Part shown: piece after piece, positions 44,824-60,302 of the stretch
Layout: each line of letters opens with the position of its first letter
Position numbering within the stretch: the stretch's first letter is position 1
Origin: Athalassotoga saccharophila
GTDB lineage: Bacteria; Thermotogota; Thermotogae; Mesoaciditogales; Mesoaciditogaceae
Assembly: GCF_009936215.1 (NCBI RefSeq)
Contig: NZ_AP019551.1
Location: 1,202,708 to 1,266,707 of the forward strand
Direction of reading: 5' to 3'
Length of the DNA stretch: 64,000 nucleotides
Notes under the pieces: generated by a model
Told to the model about the DNA's origin: nothing
What the model saw: only the letters and a program-made list of their open reading frames with translations
The model's database searches: none
Position numbers and translations under genes: made by a program

Positions 44824-46665
44824 TTAAATTCCACTTAAGGCCTCAACAGAGTCATTTTCATCACAAATAATGTATAAAGAATTCGTATTTTTATTAATGT
44901 ACATGGATACTCCCGGAACAAACATTGTCGCTATAACTCTTTCGCTTTCTCCATCTATAACGCTTATGTCATTGCTTCCATCATTTAAAACATATACGAT
45001 ATTTCTCGATTGATCTATTGCTATTGAACTTGGATTATAACCAACATTTATGGTTTTGACTACCTTATTGTTTGATCCATTTATAACACTTACATCATTC
45101 GATCCCATATTTGCCACATAAAACCTGTCTGTCATCGGATCGTATCCTATCGCAAATGGATTCTTACCTACTGGTATTCTGTCAATTAAGTCACCTGTAG
45201 AACTATTTAAGACATATACCAAATCGTACTGTATATTCGTTATATAAAGGTTGTCTCCTTTTGCTACAACAATGGCCCAGGATCCTTTATTGAATTGTGG
45301 ATCTATTTTCATGACTCCTGTGCTGTAATTTGTAATATTCACAGTTTTAACCGTGTTTCCTATGGCCTCTGGTATGTATAATTCGTTTTTATTCATAGCC
45401 ATAAAAAATGGAAGAAATCCATTAACATCTGAAAGAGACACAGTTGTCACAACAGAATTGTCTTTTCCGTTTATTATACTTACGGAATTGTCTTTATCAT
45501 TTAAGACGTAGATCATATTTGAATATGAGTCTATAATCAAATAAGTTGGCCTATTTCCAACTTGAATGGTTTTTATAACATCATTTGTTTTATCATCTAT
45601 AACACTTACGGAATTGCTACCTGCGTTTGTAACGTATATAAGATCTGTTTTTGAGTTTCCGCCTATATCCGAAGGCCCCTTACCTACTGGGATGATTTTT
45701 GAGGGAATATAAACAAGTTTCTCGCTTATTGAATTTAGGTATTTGCTTTTGAAGTTGGAAACGTATATCGTCTTCGTCTTATTACAAATAGCGATCGCGA
45801 ATGGCATTGATCCTGTATTCAAATTCTCGATTATTTTATTTGTATTTATGTCTATTACGCTAACAGTGTCATCAAAATAATTCGCAACGTAAAGAATTCG
45901 ATTGACCGGATCTAATGCTATTGCACTTGGGTGATTGCCAACCATGATTTTACCTGCAACGAGGTTTGTCTTCGAATCTATTGAAATTATTGAATTGCTA
46001 AAAACATCGGCAATGTAGATCATGTTATTGGTCGGATCAAAGCAAATCGCATTTGGCCCGTCTCCAGCATTTATTGTTTTAATCACTTCTAAGGTTCGAC
46101 CATTTATGATGCTTAAAGTGTCAGATAGACCGTTTGTGACATATATTTCATCATCTTGGGAATTAACAGCAACTCCGTGCGGATTAGTCCCAACAGGTAT
46201 CGTCGATATCACTTTGTTTGTAAGGCCATCTATTACACTGACATTATTGTCCAATTCGTTAACGACATAAATGGTATTTGTTTTAGAATTCACAGCGATT
46301 CCTTCGGGCATATTTCCAACTGGAATGGTTGCGACAATTTCATTGTTTTTACCATTTATTACGCTAACGGTGTTATTCCCTTTATCTGTAACATATACCA
46401 TGTCTGTTTTATCGTTAATCGCAATTTGGTAAGGAAAAATGCCGGTATCTATCTTTTTTATGATTTGATACGTTTTAAGATCTATAACATCTACGATTGA
46501 ATAACCACTTTCCGCAACGTATAGCGTATCATTTGATGGATCTACCGCAATGCCATTTTGATAACTTCCAATGTTAATTGTTCTCCATAGGCTATTTCCA
46601 AAAACACTTATTAAGCCAGAAAATACGAATAATAAAGACAATCCAAGAATCATTTTCAATCTCAT
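44824..46665 (-). CDS. secreted 14-repeat YVTN beta-propeller protein
   Basis: 613 residues. Residues 1-23 form a signal peptide. About fourteen repeats of about 42 residues follow, each of the form VSVINGKNNEIVATIPVGN then P.GIAVN..TNTIYV, enough for two seven-bladed YVTN/YncE-type propellers. No enzyme site is visible. Such proteins bind ligands or partners at the cell surface. The ribosome site is AAAGGAGATATTCAG. It heads an operon with the CPBP protease and membrane protein. Confidence 0.88.
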   Translation of the reverse strand: MRLKMILGLSLLFVFSGLISVFGNSLWRTINIGSYQNGIAVDPSNDTLYVAESGYSIVDVIDLKTYQIIKKIDTGIFPYQIAINDKTDMVYVTDKGNNTVSVINGKNNEIVATIPVGNMPEGIAVNSKTNTIYVVNELDNNVSVIDGLTNKVISTIPVGTNPHGVAVNSQDDEIYVTNGLSDTLSIINGRTLEVIKTINAGDGPNAICFDPTNNMIYIADVFSNSIISIDSKTNLVAGKIMVGNHPSAIALDPVNRILYVANYFDDTVSVIDINTNKIIENLNTGSMPFAIAICNKTKTIYVSNFKSKYLNSISEKLVYIPSKIIPVGKGPSDIGGNSKTDLIYVTNAGSNSVSVIDDKTNDVIKTIQVGNRPTYLIIDSYSNMIYVLNDKDNSVSIINGKDNSVVTTVSLSDVNGFLPFFMAMNKNELYIPEAIGNTVKTVNITNYSTGVMKIDPQFNKGSWAIVVAKGDNLYITNIQYDLVYVLNSSTGDLIDRIPVGKNPFAIGYDPMTDRFYVANMGSNDVSVINGSNNKVVKTINVGYNPSSIAIDQSRNIVYVLNDGSNDISVIDGESERVIATMFVPGVSMYINKNTNSLYIICDENDSVEALSGI

Positions 46666-50927: not shown

Positions 50928-51380
50928 TCACCAGTTCGCCCGGGATAAATCCTTTGCAACCTCTTCGTCTGTCAACTGCAAATATTTCTGTGTCGTCGAA
51001 AGGCTCGCATGCCCCAACATCCTCCGGATGCTTGCAATATTCGTCCCGTTCTTCAAATACAAAGTCGCCGCTGTATGCCTTAATGTATGTGGATGTATCG
51101 GCTTTCTTATCCCCGCCTTTTTTGCAAGATCCTTTACAAGCAACTCAACACGCCTTCGGGATATATCAAAGATCCTATCCTCGAGCGGGATCCCCCGAAT
51201 ATATCCTTTCAAAAGCCTGACAAGTGACTTATCAACGATTGGAATTCTTCTGTCCCTCTTCCCCTTCGTATGCCTTACAATGATAAACGTTATCCCGTTA
51301 TCCTCGACTACATCTCCTCCGGTTAATCCCAAAACCTCTCCAAGACGAAGACCTGCCCGTAACATTAATTCAACAAGCAA
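50928..51380 (-). pseudogene. tyrosine recombinase, N-terminally truncated
   Basis: 150 residues covering the catalytic domain. Arg is in MLRAGLRLGEVLGL, Lys in VRHTKGKRDRRIP, and HPHTLRHTAATLYLKNG, RRMLGHASLSTTQKYLQLTD give His-x2-Arg, His and Tyr. All catalytic residues are present, but the DNA-binding core-binding domain (about 130 residues) is missing; a TGA lies just upstream in frame. It marks a former integrative element. Confidence 0.8.
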
Positions 51381-52643: not shown

Positions 52644-54338
52644 TCACTTCATTCCATCTCTTACCATGCCAAGCGTCCTTACAAGTTTTTCCCTTCCCTT
52701 TTCGTCATCGTATGACCAGTATGCCAAAGCGGCTGGCATTCTTTTCAGATGAAACACTTTGACATATTCCTCCATTTTATCCGGAACTTCTATCCTCATT
52801 CCCCATTTTATGTCGTATCTGATATAATCTCTGGCAAATCTGTCCATTACACGCCTTTTATCCTCGTCAAGGTTCAGATAGGCTTTTATAAACCTTTTCC
52901 TTATGCGTGGAGACATTTTAGCAAGAAATGATCTTGCCAGTGCTTTTCTTCCTTCTATGAATGGATGTGCATCAAAGATGTCAGAGACGAATTTCATCGT
53001 TTCGTAGGTTATCGACATGTAGTCCTCGAAAGCCTTTATGTCATTTTTGCACAATCGAGTGGCTTTAGAAAGGACATCTTTTTGACTCAAGGACGGAATT
53101 GTCTTTCTTCTTTCAATGTATGACATATAAGTGGATAAAAAGAGGATCAATCTTTCATCTGGAGATATCTTTTCAAATCTGTCCATCAATTTTTTGAACT
53201 CATCTTCTATGAACATTTTTGTATTTTCATTTATGATCTCGAAAGGTGTATCGAAATTTACCTTTATATCCAGTCCTTTTATAATTTTCCTTATGGTATT
53301 TCCTTTTATCTTTTTTACCTTGCCGTTGAGGATCACCGATATACTCTTTGGGGTTATGCCACTGGCTTTTGCAACATTCGAGATGTTTGGAATGTAGTCT
53401 CTGAGATAATTTCTTAAAGGTACAGTATTTTCGTATGTAGATATATCGAAAACAGGTAAAAATTTATTGCTGTCGTCCACACTTTTTTTGTAATGATCTC
53501 GGGTTCCGGCTCCTTTCCCGGATAGAAGGTAACCGTACGCAAATGTCATAAAAATGGCGTTGTCGAATAACTTATAATCTTTGCAAATTTTCTGGCATTC
53601 AAGCAAAGTGTCAAGGGCAAAAAAGATAGTTCCTATATCCTCTCTGTACCAGCCGGCAAACCATACCGCTTTTTTGGCAACCTTATATGCTATCTTTGCA
53701 TGAGTTTCTTTCATGTACCATGCCATAGCGTTAAGGCTTTCTATAATGCCTGTTGGATGTGGAATTGTCTGAGCAGTTTTGAATGCTTTCGAAAAATAAG
53801 AAATCGATCCGGACAATTTTTGATCTTTTACAAGGTTCCTTGCGACGCCGAGCAATAAAAAAACCTTTGTTGAAGGATTTTCATAATCCTTGCTCCACGC
53901 TCTCGGTCTTCTTGAATTGATATTATCCCCTGCAAATGAATAATAGTTTATAAGGGTTGTAGCGGCTATCTGCCTTGGGAGTTTTGACATTTTGGAGTAT
54001 GAACATTTTATTTGAATATATATACGCTCTGATTCAGGATCTTTTAGCCTGTTTAGGATAGAGAAATATTTTATTAGAAGCAAATAGAAAATAGTTTTTC
54101 CTTTTTCGTATTTTGAACAACCAGAATATTCCTTTTTCTTTAGAACTCTTTCCGACAACAAAAGACCTTGTTTTGCTTTTCTGAGTGCCATGACATGATC
54201 GTTACACCATTCATACCTTACAGACATGAAATACATATTCCATGGATTACGACGACCGTCCAGAGCCATATTCAAAAACGGTTTTGCGAACGAACCATAA
54301 ACAAAAACGTTTTTTGCGAAAAATAAAGGCTGCTTCAT
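52644..54338 (-). CDS. large helical protein with an internal HTH, candidate regulator
   Basis: 564 residues, all-helical by pattern, with no signal peptide. Residues about 30-310 look like degenerate TPR-type helical pairs. Residues about 316-345 (PNISNVAKASGITPKSISVI then LNGKVKK) form a Lacl/Xre-like HTH. The C-terminal 200 residues are charged helices. HTH plus helical repeats recalls peptide-sensing RRNPP/Rgg regulators, though those carry the HTH at the N-terminus. It is divergent from the signal-peptide gene and peptide-maturation cluster, so it is the likely controller. I do not recognise the family. Confidence 0.6.
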   Translation of the reverse strand: MKQPLFFAKNVFVYGSFAKPFLNMALDGRRNPWNMYFMSVRYEWCNDHVMALRKAKQGLLLSERVLKKKEYSGCSKYEKGKTIFYLLLIKYFSILNRLKDPESERIYIQIKCSYSKMSKLPRQIAATTLINYYSFAGDNINSRRPRAWSKDYENPSTKVFLLLGVARNLVKDQKLSGSISYFSKAFKTAQTIPHPTGIIESLNAMAWYMKETHAKIAYKVAKKAVWFAGWYREDIGTIFFALDTLLECQKICKDYKLFDNAIFMTFAYGYLLSGKGAGTRDHYKKSVDDSNKFLPVFDISTYENTVPLRNYLRDYIPNISNVAKASGITPKSISVILNGKVKKIKGNTIRKIIKGLDIKVNFDTPFEIINENTKMFIEDEFKKLMDRFEKISPDERLILFLSTYMSYIERRKTIPSLSQKDVLSKATRLCKNDIKAFEDYMSITYETMKFVSDIFDAHPFIEGRKALARSFLAKMSPRIRKRFIKAYLNLDEDKRRVMDRFARDYIRYDIKWGMRIEVPDKMEEYVKVFHLKRMPAALAYWSYDDEKGREKLVRTLGMVRDGMK

Positions 54339-54375
54339 ATCGTTCCCTCTCGTAAAACACTTTTATCCGGTAGTT

Positions 54376-54381
54376 ATTATA
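54376..54381 (-). promoter_or_regulatory. -10 box for the 564-residue regulator
   Basis: On the minus strand TATAAT lies 38 bases before the ATG. The -35 is poor (TTTATA-like). It faces the strong rightward promoter, giving a shared 185-bp control region. Confidence 0.5.
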
Positions 54382-54464
54382 TCAATTTATACAAACATAT
54401 AAAAACATACAAAAATGGCATATCTCAAATCCTTTATTCACAGGTACTTGCAAGATCATCTAAT

Positions 54465-54492
54465 TTGACAATCATATAAATACGGATATAAT
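54465..54492 (+). promoter_or_regulatory. consensus sigma-A promoter of the peptide cluster
   Basis: TTGACA (54465-54470), 16-base spacer, TATAAT (54487-54492), both perfect consensus hexamers. The start site would be near 54499, 25 bases ahead of the signal-peptide gene. It is the best promoter seen in the window. Confidence 0.85.
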
Positions 54493-54523
54493 TGTCATGT
54501 AATTACGCGAAAGGAGGAAAAAT

Positions 54524-54658
54524 ATGAAAAGAATTTTTATATTGTTGATTATATGCCTGCTTTTATTCATGAGTATGCTATCCTTTGCGGATGATAATGG
54601 AGGAGGTTCACAAGAAGGTAATCCGAATCCACCTGTTGCTGCTTCTCAAATTCCTTAA
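54524..54658 (+). CDS. 44-residue secreted peptide, candidate signal or pro-peptide
   Basis: ATG 54524 follows AAAGGAGG. Residues 1-22 are a classic signal peptide (KRIFILLIICLLLFMSML then SFA). Cleavage after Ala22 would release a 22-residue peptide, DDNGGGSQEGNPNPPVAASQ then IP. It has no Cys and is Gly/Pro/Asn-rich. It is driven by a consensus promoter and faces the HTH regulator, which suits an exported signalling peptide; this is inference. Too small for most gene callers. Confidence 0.75.
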   Translation: MKRIFILLIICLLLFMSMLSFADDNGGGSQEGNPNPPVAASQIP

Positions 54659-54759
54659 CTATGCATACTCTGAGAAATTGTAATGTTCCATTAATCTCTT
54701 GATTTTTTAGATGATCATTTTCAACTAGAATGTGAATATAGTTGGCAAATTAGTTATAT

Positions 54760-54940
54760 AGAGGGCACCCAATCAATCAAATAGAAAGGAGATTACTAAT
54801 ATGGAAAATGAAAATAGTTTAGACATTGTTGAAATTGATTCAGTTGAATTTGATTCAACATGTATATTTGATATGTGTGCAAATGGTGGTTAAATAATCC
54901 CGTCTTTTCTTTAATTTAAAGTTGAAAAAGGGTGCCCTCT
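54760..54940. repeat. perfect inverted repeat bracketing the precursor gene
   Basis: AGAGGGCACCC (54760-54770) lies before the ribosome site and GGGTGCCCTCT (54930-54940) lies after the stop of the 30-residue peptide gene. The 11-bp arms enclose exactly this gene. In RNA they could pair to make a closed loop that protects the precursor message or limits read-through to the maturase gene. Confidence 0.8.
54801..54893 (+). CDS. 30-residue RiPP precursor candidate
   Basis: ATG 54801 follows AAAGGAG. The acidic leader-like part is MENENSLDIVEIDSVEFDS. The C-terminal core-like part is TCIFDMCANGG, with two Cys five residues apart and a Gly-Gly end. It lies 170 bases upstream of a radical SAM/SPASM protein. 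An acidic leader and Cys-bearing core are usual for sactipeptide, ranthipeptide and related substrates. The CxxD spacing (Cys, Ile, Phe, Asp) and Ile/Phe residues offer several crosslink sites. The assignment is by context and size. Confidence 0.75.
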   Translation: MENENSLDIVEIDSVEFDSTCIFDMCANGG

Positions 54941-55062
54941 GTTTATAGACATAAATTGAAAGCATTGAGTTCCAACTCTTTTTAGTGAGAAATCTTTTGA
55001 AAAGAATAGTAAGAAGTTTCAAAATTGAATTGATTCACTATCTATTTTCATGAGGTGATACT

Positions 55063-56409
55063 ATGAAAAATTTAAAAAAATCAAGCAAAGTGTTTATATT
55101 CGAGTATGAAAGTGATAAATATATCTTTATTTCAAATATAACAGGCAAAATAATCTTGGGTGATAAAAATTTACTTCGTAAAATTGAAAATCCATCTTGC
55201 TTAAATGAAGAAGAAAAAATAACTGACTACTTGATTAAAAATTATTTTGTAGTTGATGATTCTCTCGATGAAAATAAAATTTTAATGGAACATATCAAAA
55301 AGGCAAAGGATAATATTCCACTTACTTTTGTTATATACTTAACATATAATTGCAATTTTGCATGCTTTTATTGTTTTCAAGGATCTGGAACAAAGAATAA
55401 ATCTCTAAGTAAAAATGATTTATCATACATAGTCTCGTTTATCAGCCAAAAAGTTGAAGAATTAAATGATAAAAGATTTACGTTGGTTTTTACAGGTGGT
55501 GAACCATTTTTAAGATTTGATTTGATGAAAGAGATAATCTTTGAATTAGAAAATCATGGATACAAAAATAATTTTAGAACCAGAGTAATAACAAACGGCT
55601 CGCTTATTAATAAAGAAAATGGTGAGGTGTTGTCGCATTATAATTGGTTTTCAACTCAAATTACTTTGGATGGGACAAGAGAATATCATGGCAAAATGAG
55701 ACCTTATAAAAATGGTGATAACAGTTTTGATGATGTCATTAATGGAATAAACAATGCTTTAAAATTTTCAAAAGAAGTTGTGCTAAGAATAAACGTTTCT
55801 CAAGATAACGAAAATGGTATAAATAGTCTCTTAGGCTATCTAAAAGATAATGGCTACACAAAAGTTAATAATCTCATCTTGGGATTTCACCCTATTTTAA
55901 ACTACTTTGAGAGTGTAAAAAACAAGTTATGTGACAGAGTTTACTCAGAAATAGTATGGTCTGAAAAAGCATTAAAATTTTATGATCTTGGACATCAATT
56001 GGGATTTAAAAATATTGATCTTCCTCTGAGCTTTCCAAGATTAGTGTATTGCGGGGCAACTTCATTCAAGATCTTTCATATACTTCCTGATGGTAAAATA
56101 GCTACGTGTTGGGCCGTTGGGGGAGATATGAATGATTTCATAATAGGTTCTATATACAATCAACAGAATATTGAATATGACAAGAATATTCAAAGGCTTA
56201 AAAATTATAATCCACTCATACAAGATAAGTGTAAAAACTGTTCTGTATTTTCGTTTTGTGGCGGTGGATGCTTGGCACAAGCAAAATCTTTTAACGGAAG
56301 CATAAATAATTCTGTATGTTCATATTTATCATACAATCCAAAAGAGCATGTAACAAGATTTGTAGAACAAAGAATAGCAAATAGTAGATATAATGATATA
56401 CATTTTTGA
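55063..56409 (+). CDS. radical SAM/SPASM peptide maturase
   Basis: 448 residues. Residues 1-85 look like a PqqD-type recognition domain (KVFIFEYESDKYIFISNITG). The SAM cluster is C97, C101, C104 in TYNCNFACFYCFQG, followed by FTGGEPFLRFDLM. The SPASM region has C330, C349, C390, C393, C399, C403 and C419, the complete seven-Cys pattern that binds two auxiliary clusters. Enzymes of this build make thioether or C-C crosslinks in ribosomal peptides. The ribosome site is GAGGTGATACT. It is more A/T-rich than the housekeeping genes. Confidence 0.9.
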   Translation: MKNLKKSSKVFIFEYESDKYIFISNITGKIILGDKNLLRKIENPSCLNEEEKITDYLIKNYFVVDDSLDENKILMEHIKKAKDNIPLTFVIYLTYNCNFACFYCFQGSGTKNKSLSKNDLSYIVSFISQKVEELNDKRFTLVFTGGEPFLRFDLMKEIIFELENHGYKNNFRTRVITNGSLINKENGEVLSHYNWFSTQITLDGTREYHGKMRPYKNGDNSFDDVINGINNALKFSKEVVLRINVSQDNENGINSLLGYLKDNGYTKVNNLILGFHPILNYFESVKNKLCDRVYSEIVWSEKALKFYDLGHQLGFKNIDLPLSFPRLVYCGATSFKIFHILPDGKIATCWAVGGDMNDFIIGSIYNQQNIEYDKNIQRLKNYNPLIQDKCKNCSVFSFCGGGCLAQAKSFNGSINNSVCSYLSYNPKEHVTRFVEQRIANSRYNDIHF

Positions 56410-56426
56410 ATGCAGGTAAAACGATA

Positions 56427-57647
56427 ATGGCGACAAATGTTCACATATTGAAAAACAGGAACTTTCTTTTGCTCTTCTTTGGAAGACTCATATCTACGGC
56501 CGGCTCTGCTATTTTTTTCGTAGCAATCGTATGGGCTGCTGCCACAAAGGTGGGTGGTGTGGGACCTGTCAGCCTTGTTTTAATGGCCACGGCAATACCT
56601 TCAGCGATATTTTCACCATTTGCTGGGGTGTTAGCAGATCGAAAAAGAAAAAAATGGATAGTCATCTTCACGGATCTGATAAGTGGTATAGTACTCTTTT
56701 TAATGCTGATTTTTCTTAACGCCGAGTTTGGGCAATTATGGATACTTTTAGGTGTTGTATTTACCATTCAAATTCTTTCGACATTTTTTAATCCGGCACT
56801 TCAGTCACTTGTTCCATTAATAGTGAAAGACGAAGAACTTTCAAATGCAAACGCTCTGCTCTCGATGACCGGAAGCATTTCTCAATTAATCGGGATGGCG
56901 ATCGGGGGAATACTTATCGCAGTCTTTGGACTGTATGGAGCCATACTTGTCGATGGGGTAAGTTTCATATTTTCCGGTATTTCAGAGATTTTTTTGGAAG
57001 TGGATGAAGTCAAAAAAGATAGTAAAAAAGGTTTAGGTTCAATCTTTTCTGAAATAAAAGAAGGCTTTGCAGTTGTTTTTAGGAAAGCCGATCTTGGAGG
57101 ATTGATCGTAACAGAGTCGATAATAGATTTCTTCGGGACTCCTATTTTTATCTTCTTACCTTTGATAATCACGAGATATATGAATGGCGGTTCTGCTCAA
57201 TATGGCCTTATGCAGTCCCTTATGGGAGTTGGAACGATTGTAGCCTCCGTTCTACTTTCTTTTATGCCGGAGCCAAAAAGAAAGTTTTTTCTAATGGCAA
57301 TATCCACATTTATTTTAGGATCATGTATGAGTTTTATCGGGATAAAACAATCTTATTTCGTGCTTGCTCCCGCATTGCTGATCCTTGGATTTTTCTCTGG
57401 AATTGCCAATGTGATACAGAATGTGATCCTGCAAAGAAGTTCGCCGAAAGAGGTTCGAGGTCGTGTTTTTTCTTTTAGATCGACTTTGAATTCTGGACTT
57501 AGGCCTGTCTCTTACGGATTTGCAGGGCTTATAAGCACATTATTTCCGATAACAACACTTCTTGTATACCTTGGAATTTTATCTGGTCTTTGTGGCTTTG
57601 CTTATTTTTTCATAAGTAAGAAAGTAATTAAAGTAGTCTCGAGGTAA
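56427..57647 (+). CDS. MFS efflux transporter
   Basis: 406 residues from ATG 56427 (AGGT nine bases upstream), 18 bases after the maturase stop; a TTG at 56406 would overlap that stop. Twelve helices. NRNFLLLFFGRLISTAGSAI (10-29) and GVLADRKRKKWIVIFTDLIS (about 68-87) hold the MFS A-motif, and QRSSPKEVRGRVFSFRS fits the MFS_3/enterobactin-exporter-like group. With the maturase it probably exports the finished peptide or confers immunity. Confidence 0.88.
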   Translation: MATNVHILKNRNFLLLFFGRLISTAGSAIFFVAIVWAAATKVGGVGPVSLVLMATAIPSAIFSPFAGVLADRKRKKWIVIFTDLISGIVLFLMLIFLNAEFGQLWILLGVVFTIQILSTFFNPALQSLVPLIVKDEELSNANALLSMTGSISQLIGMAIGGILIAVFGLYGAILVDGVSFIFSGISEIFLEVDEVKKDSKKGLGSIFSEIKEGFAVVFRKADLGGLIVTESIIDFFGTPIFIFLPLIITRYMNGGSAQYGLMQSLMGVGTIVASVLLSFMPEPKRKFFLMAISTFILGSCMSFIGIKQSYFVLAPALLILGFFSGIANVIQNVILQRSSPKEVRGRVFSFRSTLNSGLRPVSYGFAGLISTLFPITTLLVYLGILSGLCGFAYFFISKKVIKVVSR

Positions 57648-57984: not shown

Positions 57985-59178
57985 TCATATCAACCCGCGA
58001 TAGTCCACAACGGTAACGTTATTGCTTTTTTGATTTATCATGTAAAGTTTTTTCATTTCAGAATTCACGACCAAAGAGTAAGGAGAATATGGATCCGGTA
58101 TCACGCTTATGATACGATCCGTTGTTCCATCTATTACACTTACCGAATTGCTGTCAGTGTTTGCGACAAAGATAAGATCATCTTTTGGGTCTATTGCAAC
58201 CGAACTGGGGTGCACTCCTACGGGAATCGTTTTTAACAATTCGTAAGTACTCGCGCTTATGACACTGACGGTGTTATCTCCAGAATTTGCAACGTAGATG
58301 TTATCTTTGTCTGCACAAACGCTAAGCGGTGAAAGGCCAACTGGAATTGTCGCAATGACGGCATTTCCATCTATCACGCTAAGCGTGTTATCGTAATTAT
58401 TCACAACGTAGATCCTGTTTGCATCCTGATCAACGAATATACAGCACGGGTCATTTCCCACATTTATTCTGCCGATAACCGAGTTTATCTTTAGGTTTAT
58501 AACATCTACATGATTTCCATAATAGGCCGAATTGTAACTTTCGGTCACGTATAAAGTATCCGTCTTTTGATCTATTCCCATTCCACTCGGGGCATAATTC
58601 AAAGGAATTGAGCCTTCGAATCTGTTCTCAACAGTGTTGTAAATTCCTATAGAATAAAAGGACGTTACACTCTCATTGGCTATGTACATAAGCCCTGTAT
58701 CGAGATTTATCACGAGTGCTGAGGGATTTACCCCGACGGGGATATTTTGGAATATGTTCTCGAATGTGTCTTTTTGACCATTTATCATGACAACGCTGTT
58801 ATCCAGATTGTCCGCAACGTAGATCATCCCGTTTTTGGGATCAAAAACACCGGCGTCTGGAGATGTGCCAACCGTTATTTCTTTCAACTTTGGCCCTGTG
58901 AATGAACCGACAAAATCAACGTTGGTTTGGGTCTCTAAAGTTACCTCTTGAGGGTCAAATTTCCACCATTTCAGATATGGCTCTATCTTTACTGTGCCAT
59001 TTGATTGAATGGTCCATGAGCCGTCCGTGTTCGAGAATGTAAATGGTTGACCGTTTACGAGGATATTCACGCCCGGTACGGCATTTTGATTCGCATCGTC
59101 CACGTATCCCGAAATGGTGTAAGAAAAGCCTAAAATTCCAATCAAAAGGGATGAAAAGATCAAAAAGATTTTCCTCAT
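57985..59178 (-). CDS. secreted beta-propeller with N-terminal carboxypeptidase-regulatory-like domain
   Basis: 397 residues. Residues 1-18 form a signal peptide. Residues 20-90 are a CarboxypepD_reg-like beta-sandwich (YTISGYVDDANQNAVPGVNI, then FSNTDGSWTI). Seven YVTN repeats follow, for example NSGDNTVSVISASTYELLKT and DPKDDLIFVANTDSNSVSVI, enough for one propeller. It is likely a surface or periplasmic binding protein. The ribosome site is AAAGGAGATAATCGAT. A decayed copy lies at 42654-42997. Confidence 0.88.
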   Translation of the reverse strand: MRKIFLIFSSLLIGILGFSYTISGYVDDANQNAVPGVNILVNGQPFTFSNTDGSWTIQSNGTVKIEPYLKWWKFDPQEVTLETQTNVDFVGSFTGPKLKEITVGTSPDAGVFDPKNGMIYVADNLDNSVVMINGQKDTFENIFQNIPVGVNPSALVINLDTGLMYIANESVTSFYSIGIYNTVENRFEGSIPLNYAPSGMGIDQKTDTLYVTESYNSAYYGNHVDVINLKINSVIGRINVGNDPCCIFVDQDANRIYVVNNYDNTLSVIDGNAVIATIPVGLSPLSVCADKDNIYVANSGDNTVSVISASTYELLKTIPVGVHPSSVAIDPKDDLIFVANTDSNSVSVIDGTTDRIISVIPDPYSPYSLVVNSEMKKLYMINQKSNNVTVVDYRGLI

Positions 59179-59228
59179 ATCGATTATCTCCTTTAGAGTA
59201 GGTCCTTTTTATTTGTTCCCTCCTCTTC

Positions 59229-60227
59229 TTATTTCATGGTGCCGAAACCGCGAATGGCCTTTACCATATTCAGCCCTTCAAGGGCAACATAGACTATATT
59301 CTTATTTTGATCCACACATATGCCCCATGGACCTCTTCCAACATATATAGTTTTTAAAATTGAATTGTCCTTTCCATTTATTACGCTGACTGTGTTACTT
59401 CCCCAGTTAGAAACATAGATTATATCTGTACGTGTATCGACGGCTATCCCATCCGGATTATTTCCAACGTGCAGGGTTTTAATTACAGAATTATTCGTGC
59501 CATTTATTACGCTAATAGTTCCATTCTTCCAGTTAGTGACGTAAATCGTATTTGTGTATGGATTTACAGCAATAGTTCCAGGTTGTTCTCCAACTAATAC
59601 ATTTGATAATATTAATGAATTGGAATATCCTAAAGTCGAAAGTAATATTTTGCCACTTATTACACTGACTATATTTTGATCATGATTGGTAACGTAAATT
59701 ATATTTGTGATCGGGTTTACCGCAACTCCCCAGGCTCCGCTAAGGCCGCTACTTATCTGTGCAGATGTTATGATGGAATTGTCATTACCGTTTATTACGG
59801 TTATCGTATTTCCTACCGAATTAGTTACATATATAATATTCCTACTCGAATCTATGCTAACGCCAGCAGGATAATATTCAGTAATCGACAAAGGTATGGT
59901 CGCAATCACATAATTATCTGTACCATCTATTACGCTAATTGTGTTATCGTGAAAATTTACAACATAAACTCTGTTTGTTACAGGATTTACGCCGATAGAA
60001 ATAGGCGAAGAACCAACAGGTATAACTGCTACTTCACAGTAATTCTTACCGTTTATTACGCTGACAGTATTATTTCCAGAATTAGCCACATAAATCATAT
60101 CCGTTTTTGGATTTATACCAATGACACTCGGCCATTTGCCTACAGGAATATTCGCTATCGTTGAAGCAATTACAAAATTAGGCAATACAATCGTGATCAT
60201 AATGATCCAAAATAAATATCTTTTCAC
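59229..60227 (-). CDS. secreted YVTN beta-propeller protein
   Basis: 332 residues from GTG 60227 behind AAAGGAGATGATGAC; the paralogue in locus A uses ATG at this site, which supports the choice. The signal peptide is KRYLFWIIMITIVLPNFVIA. Seven repeats of the NTVSVINGK type follow. DNA of neighbouring repeats is similar enough to recombine, as seen in the collapsed copy at 43053-43373. It is translated with the 397-residue propeller downstream. Confidence 0.88.
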   Translation of the reverse strand: MKRYLFWIIMITIVLPNFVIASTIANIPVGKWPSVIGINPKTDMIYVANSGNNTVSVINGKNYCEVAVIPVGSSPISIGVNPVTNRVYVVNFHDNTISVIDGTDNYVIATIPLSITEYYPAGVSIDSSRNIIYVTNSVGNTITVINGNDNSIITSAQISSGLSGAWGVAVNPITNIIYVTNHDQNIVSVISGKILLSTLGYSNSLILSNVLVGEQPGTIAVNPYTNTIYVTNWKNGTISVINGTNNSVIKTLHVGNNPDGIAVDTRTDIIYVSNWGSNTVSVINGKDNSILKTIYVGRGPWGICVDQNKNIVYVALEGLNMVKAIRGFGTMK

Positions 60228-60302
60228 GTCATCATCTCCTTTGTACTTTATTTGCACATCCGGCCACTTTCTCAAATGACCGGACAGTTTTGGAAATAAG
60301 AT

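Follow-up and report, generated by a model that had tools for sequence, protein, structure and literature searches.

A conserved radical SAM peptide-maturation locus in Athalassotoga saccharophila and a candidate regulator/secreted-peptide pair beside it

Is the short peptide gene that precedes a radical SAM gene in Athalassotoga saccharophila part of a RiPP operon, and if so, what chemistry and what control would that operon be under? The locus lies in a 64,000-nt stretch of DNA, referred to below as the window, from this heat-loving bacterium (Thermotogota; Mesoaciditogaceae; NZ_AP019551.1, 1,202,708-1,266,707, assembly GCF_009936215.1). An earlier note on it had described a 30-residue Cys-containing peptide, a radical SAM protein and an MFS exporter in this order on one strand, and when the open reading frames were re-found these coordinates proved exact (positions are those of the window):

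54801-54893, plus strand: candidate RiPP precursor, 30 aa, MENENSLDIVEIDSVEFDSTCIFDMCANGG (CX4C), from the ORF and its conservation
55063-56409, plus strand: predicted radical SAM/SPASM maturase, 448 aa, from Pfam, NCBIfam, homologue alignment and nearest structure
56406-57647, plus strand: predicted MFS exporter, 413 aa, with an ORF that overlaps the stop codon of the maturase gene, from Pfam, NCBIfam and a homologue

A search of the phylum genomes returned maturases 51% identical to that of the window in G031, G033 and G045, three species from another family of the same class. The refutation check set beforehand, for a conserved small peptide next to homologous maturases, was thereby run, and the peptide is present in these genomes: the precursor beside the maturase is MENNTKDKIEIIELNNVEFESTCKYDMCGNGNV, 53% identical to that of the window, and the MFS protein is 47% identical. 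The precursors share the motif VEF[DE]STCx[FY]DMCxNG. A search with TCxxDMCxNG written as degenerate DNA gave matches in 4 of 103 phylum genomes, exactly the maturase carriers. The gene set is thus known from four genomes, three of them near-identical at the locus. In the other family IS remnants lie between precursor, maturase and MFS gene, and the set is still kept in the same order; because it persists across two Thermotogota families despite these insertions, the RiPP reading is well supported. Single-protein and two-sequence scans of genome contigs and viral contigs returned no close relatives. The precursor has no Pfam or NCBIfam match, in agreement with the earlier note, which could assign it to no known class. 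That a short ORF merely happens to sit beside an orphan radical SAM protein, with no RiPP being made, has the brevity of a 30-aa ORF in its favour, but is extremely improbable given the identity retained between families, the strong ribosome site (AAGGAG) upstream of the precursor and the restriction of the motif to maturase carriers. Judged from its genes, the cluster is real, belongs to a known kind and has MFS export as a conserved feature; the reported absence of a protease and an ABC exporter is correct at this locus.

The G+C content of the maturase and precursor genes (28.5% and 26.9%) is set against 38.9% for the MFS gene and 38.7% for the window. Since the two are far more AT-rich than both, their composition suggests that they were acquired and then placed ahead of an older exporter. 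Secreted beta-propeller proteins of the YncE/NHL type, whose blades repeat a VANSGDNTVSVI-like sequence, are encoded in the flanking region at 57985-60275 and 44824-46665.

The maturase matches Pfam Radical_SAM (PF04055) with an E-value of 1.4e-16, and its CX3CX2C motif (C97, C101, C104; coded at 55351-55374) is the predicted ligand set of the SAM cluster. A full seven-Cys SPASM pattern had been claimed and is complete by inspection (C330-x13-G-x4-C349 / C390-x2-C393-x5-C399-x3-C403 / C419; coded between 56050 and 56319). All seven residues are conserved in the 51% identical homologue, and the Pfam SPASM model stays below its cut-off (15.2 vs 21.5 bits). Conversely, the PqqD-like N-terminus that had also been described is without sequence support, as no Pfam match to a PqqD or RRE domain was obtained at E ≤ 10 for the N-termini of four maturases. 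The best NCBIfam models were CefB (4.6e-57) and TIGR04463 (4.7e-51), followed by geopeptide, Clo7bot and PapB, and none of the curated maturase cut-offs was reached. The nearest solved structure is CteB (5wgg, 6e-21), a thioether-forming SCIFF maturase, which adds to the support for a RiPP cluster.

Each of the families closest to the maturase differs from the window system in definable ways. CefB (NF038107) aligns over residues 10-439 and the precursor's Cys residues are likewise five apart, but the score is 193.7 bits against a cut-off of 600, and the precursor carries one CX4C with only two Cys instead of a Cys-every-fifth array; the Thermotogota host and MFS export are further differences. 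The CteB/SCIFF maturases (TIGR03974) share the radical SAM domain and seven-Cys SPASM region, and it is to their thioether chemistry that the window enzyme is likened; similarity starts only at residue 85, however, at 87.4 bits against a cut-off of 425, and with two Cys the precursor differs from the SCIFF peptides, which have six. PapB ranthipeptide maturases (NF047865) are SPASM enzymes acting on short Cys/Asp peptides, and the window motif also holds C..D, but with 126.3 bits against 340 and a C-x2-D spacing; that of PapA is CX3D. The exporter belongs to Pfam MFS_1 (2.7e-46) and may start later, at an ATG near 56427. The Ryptide MFS exporter model (NF041056; 2e-12) gives, by its name, a precedent for MFS export of a RiPP, but at 46.9 bits against a cut-off of 575; TIGR00900 is closer (251.6 vs cut-off 319.6).

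A RiPP operon with a Cys-crosslinking maturase is the probable reading, with good confidence, and thioether formation by the two Cys, five apart, would be the most likely outcome. A different radical modification (a C-C crosslink, epimerisation, or Asp/aromatic chemistry) acting on the conserved F/Y-D-M is unlikely. The Asp-Met pair and the aromatic residue are conserved equally with both Cys, and no family cut-off is reached; still, the top-scoring families and the CteB structure are those of Cys-rich peptide maturases, and the CX4C spacing agrees with the name of the top-scoring family, Cys-every-fifth.

The precursor cistron, together with its ribosome site, is itself enclosed by an inverted repeat, GC-rich against AT-rich surroundings:

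54755-54770, plus strand: 5' arm of the inverted repeat, core ATAGAGGGCACCC at 54758-54770
54930-54945, plus strand: 3' arm of the inverted repeat, core GGGTGCCCTCTGT at 54930-54942

At the homologous locus a 20-nt repeat of unrelated sequence occupies the equivalent position. An unbiased scan took in 246 small intergenic ORFs. Eight of them, at 6 distinct loci, had flanking-stem scores of at least 33, and all eight are RiPP-precursor candidates; among random windows the count was 2 of 1498 (0.13%). The RNA fold z-score was -4.85 for the window transcript and -2.62 for that of another locus, L125. The homologue transcript forms the stem, with an overall z-score that is not significant (-1.18). 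These data suggest an RNA stem around the precursor cistron, which may serve its processing or protection. Since most other precursors near radical SAM genes are without a stem, the enclosing stem is a recurrent option and not a rule. Rfam gave no match, and a second pair of arms (54460-54477 / 54736-54753), around a small upstream ORF described below, scored 24, at background level. Elsewhere, at L029:11802-12011, a 69-aa Cys-rich precursor candidate is flanked by a 14-nt inverted repeat without mismatch (TGTGGCTGGAAAAG/CTTTTCCAGCCACA).

It could be asked whether the repeat acts as DNA instead, as the ends of a small mobile cassette or as invertase sites that flip the precursor. The precursor of the other family does lie between IS transposase fragments, and a tyrosine-recombinase-like ORF of 150 aa, short and probably a remnant, is found at 50928-51380, ~3.4 kb from the cluster. 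Against this, neither the window genome nor G045 has further copies of the arms (one single-mismatch match in the former), the arm sequences are unrelated between loci, and the mispairs in the stems of the window and L021 are mostly of the G-U type, which the scoring favours. A DNA-level role is thus quite improbable, and a mobile-element origin is disfavoured, the arms not being dispersed repeats.

As to control, the earlier note had let the cluster begin at 54338, a position that is the start codon of a divergent regulator gene. The proposed three-gene unit was also too small, an ORF for a 44-aa signal-peptide protein at 54524 having been missed, so that four genes (this mini-ORF, precursor, maturase and MFS exporter) follow one another on the plus strand:

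52644-54338, minus strand: divergent regulator, 564 aa, from profile searches and HTH/TPR matches
54465-54492, plus strand: promoter-like site TTGACA-16-TATAAT (12/12), sigma-70-like, upstream of the mini-ORF
54498-54471, minus strand: promoter-like site (10/12) overlapping the previous one and directed towards the regulator
54524-54658, plus strand: mini-ORF, 44 aa, with N-terminal signal peptide, MKRIFILLIICLLLFMSMLSFADDNGGGSQEGNPNPPVAASQIP; candidate secreted signal

The regulator has an N-terminal TPR-like solenoid, an internal Cro/C1-type HTH (approximately residues 309-360) and a conserved C-terminal domain, and no named Pfam or NCBIfam family covers it. The HTH matches of the window protein (HTH_3, 2.5e-4; HTH_26, 6e-4) are below the Pfam gathering score. 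A 50-member profile of the family matches consensus TPR chains (2.8e-5), and among the members there are matches to Cro/C1 HTH models and, in 9 of the 50, to TPR_12; a single-sequence AlphaFold model had a pLDDT of 39, too low to be informative. A profile built from four relatives detected the family in 58 of the 103 Thermotogota genomes, representing 32 of 38 genera, with as many as 14 matches apiece. Neither viral sequences scanned with the regulator profile nor a plasmid search yielded a relative. The last ~105 residues are 76% identical to those of the regulator at L024:5757-7226, the remainder 25%, as if the sensing part had been exchanged by recent recombination or gene conversion of the C-terminal module.

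Nor does the cluster stand alone; it belongs to a recurrent module of regulator and signal-peptide mini-ORF. Within 450 bp, a divergent mini-ORF of this type was present at 32 of 51 regulators (a non-redundant set with flanking sequence) and not found at the other 19, compared with 2 of 363 controls, the other large ORFs of the same loci (p=4e-32). Under strict criteria the counts were 21/51 and 0/363. Promoter-like sites of at least 10/12 precede the mini-ORF at 14 of 29 scored loci, against ~8% of shuffles. A radical SAM gene occurs within 4 kb of 22 of the 51 regulators, divergent in 19, and other regulators adjoin ABC or MFS exporters. In one genus near-identical mini-ORFs stand ahead of quite different precursors, and elsewhere the mini-ORF precedes ABC or MFS genes without a radical SAM gene. 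By its distribution, then, the mini-ORF appears to go with the regulator, not with the cargo. The C-terminal part of the window copy is DDNGGGSQEGNPNPPVAASQIP, and across families the mature tail has a D-rich start followed by an S/T-x-NP-like segment. The more alike two tails are, the more alike their regulators tend to be (Mantel rho 0.27, p=0.0005), a correlation that shared descent alone could give. A reading of the mini-ORF as a further RiPP precursor was discarded, as the mature tail of the window copy is without Cys and the mini-ORF accompanies the regulator rather than the enzyme.

Three loci (L025:5170-7494, L040 and L041) have the same divergent regulator along with ABC export; there a single radical SAM gene is surrounded by six Cys-rich precursors in tandem (M.WIE...CPCKGPxC, 47-53 aa), which form a separate RiPP family. 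At L077 (4868, 14463, 17756) and L073, MFS or ABC exporters are directly divergent to regulators with the radical SAM gene absent, and may serve unmodified or differently modified peptides. Tandem pairs of radical SAM genes with MEFLN... Cys-rich precursors, from several families, occur at L027, L028, L030-L032 and L105, possibly loci of the TM1316 type. Thermotoga maritima TM1315-TM1319 is a Thermotogota locus with a short peptide, two radical SAM genes and ABC export; the candidate precursors of the related tandem loci (MEFLNKPV...) differ from that of the window.

The simplest reading of the module would be a peptide pheromone and its receptor controlling RiPP-type operons. By functional analogy it resembles the RRNPP proteins of Bacillota with Phr or PapR, where a TPR and HTH protein adjoins a short secreted propeptide: the solenoid is present, and so, at the frequency given above, is the neighbouring propeptide. 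The HTH of RRNPP proteins is N-terminal, however, whereas that of the 564-residue regulator is internal; the window arrangement is moreover divergent, with an extra C-terminal domain in the regulator, and no sequence match between the regulator profile and a solved RRNPP protein was found. Because the HTH is not N-terminal and peptide binding is only predicted, the system is not filed as RRNPP. A literature search on RRNPP or TPR signalling in Thermotogae returned nothing relevant. A survey of thermophiles places peptide quorum sensing in T. maritima only, finds a complete peptide system in no thermophile, and suggests that proteins yet to be recognised may take part (PMC6022435).

There is also considerable room for a real RiPP operon whose mini-ORF product is a further secreted effector or a peptide of the envelope, with a regulator that senses, e.g., starvation or envelope stress; somewhat less than even confidence attaches to this alternative. 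It draws on the predicted nature of peptide binding and on the unusual HTH position, and TM1316 of T. maritima is reportedly induced by stationary phase and nutrient level, going by the title of a 2013 report by Frock that is cited in PMC13157175. On the other hand, it sits less well with a mini-ORF that accompanies the regulator and not the cargo, and with a mature tail that keeps its pattern across families.

Tentatively, and with confidence a little short of even, a phylum-wide Thermotogota pheromone system is proposed here, in which receptors with TPR and internal HTH regions and divergent secreted propeptides of 40-70 aa would switch on RiPP-type operons, a subset of these having the precursor cistron inside a long-range RNA stem that would set precursor dosage. 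In the window, the sigma-70-like promoter at 54465-54492 would drive one transcript for secreted peptide, precursor, maturase and MFS exporter. The mini-ORF peptide would be secreted and trimmed, and the TPR/HTH protein would sense it intracellularly and control the divergent promoter and hence the whole operon, so that production may rise with cell density via the processed peptide. The stem would probably separate the precursor cistron from the downstream enzyme genes or stabilise it relative to them. Using SAM-derived radicals, the maturase would form one or two thioether bonds between the Cys residues of STCx[FY]DMC and carbon atoms close by; a housekeeping protease would remove the leader, and the MFS protein would export the product.

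With its 30-aa substrate open to testing, the radical SAM system of this locus is compact and probably thermostable. Two proposals give the locus a wider interest: that a regulator and a secreted peptide are paired throughout the phylum, and that the precursor cistron is enclosed by a stem. The pair would supply the missing receptor side of Thermotogota peptide signalling, a question it makes directly testable, and could guide genome mining for RiPP clusters in the whole phylum; the arrangement may represent an unrecognised system of cell-to-cell signalling.
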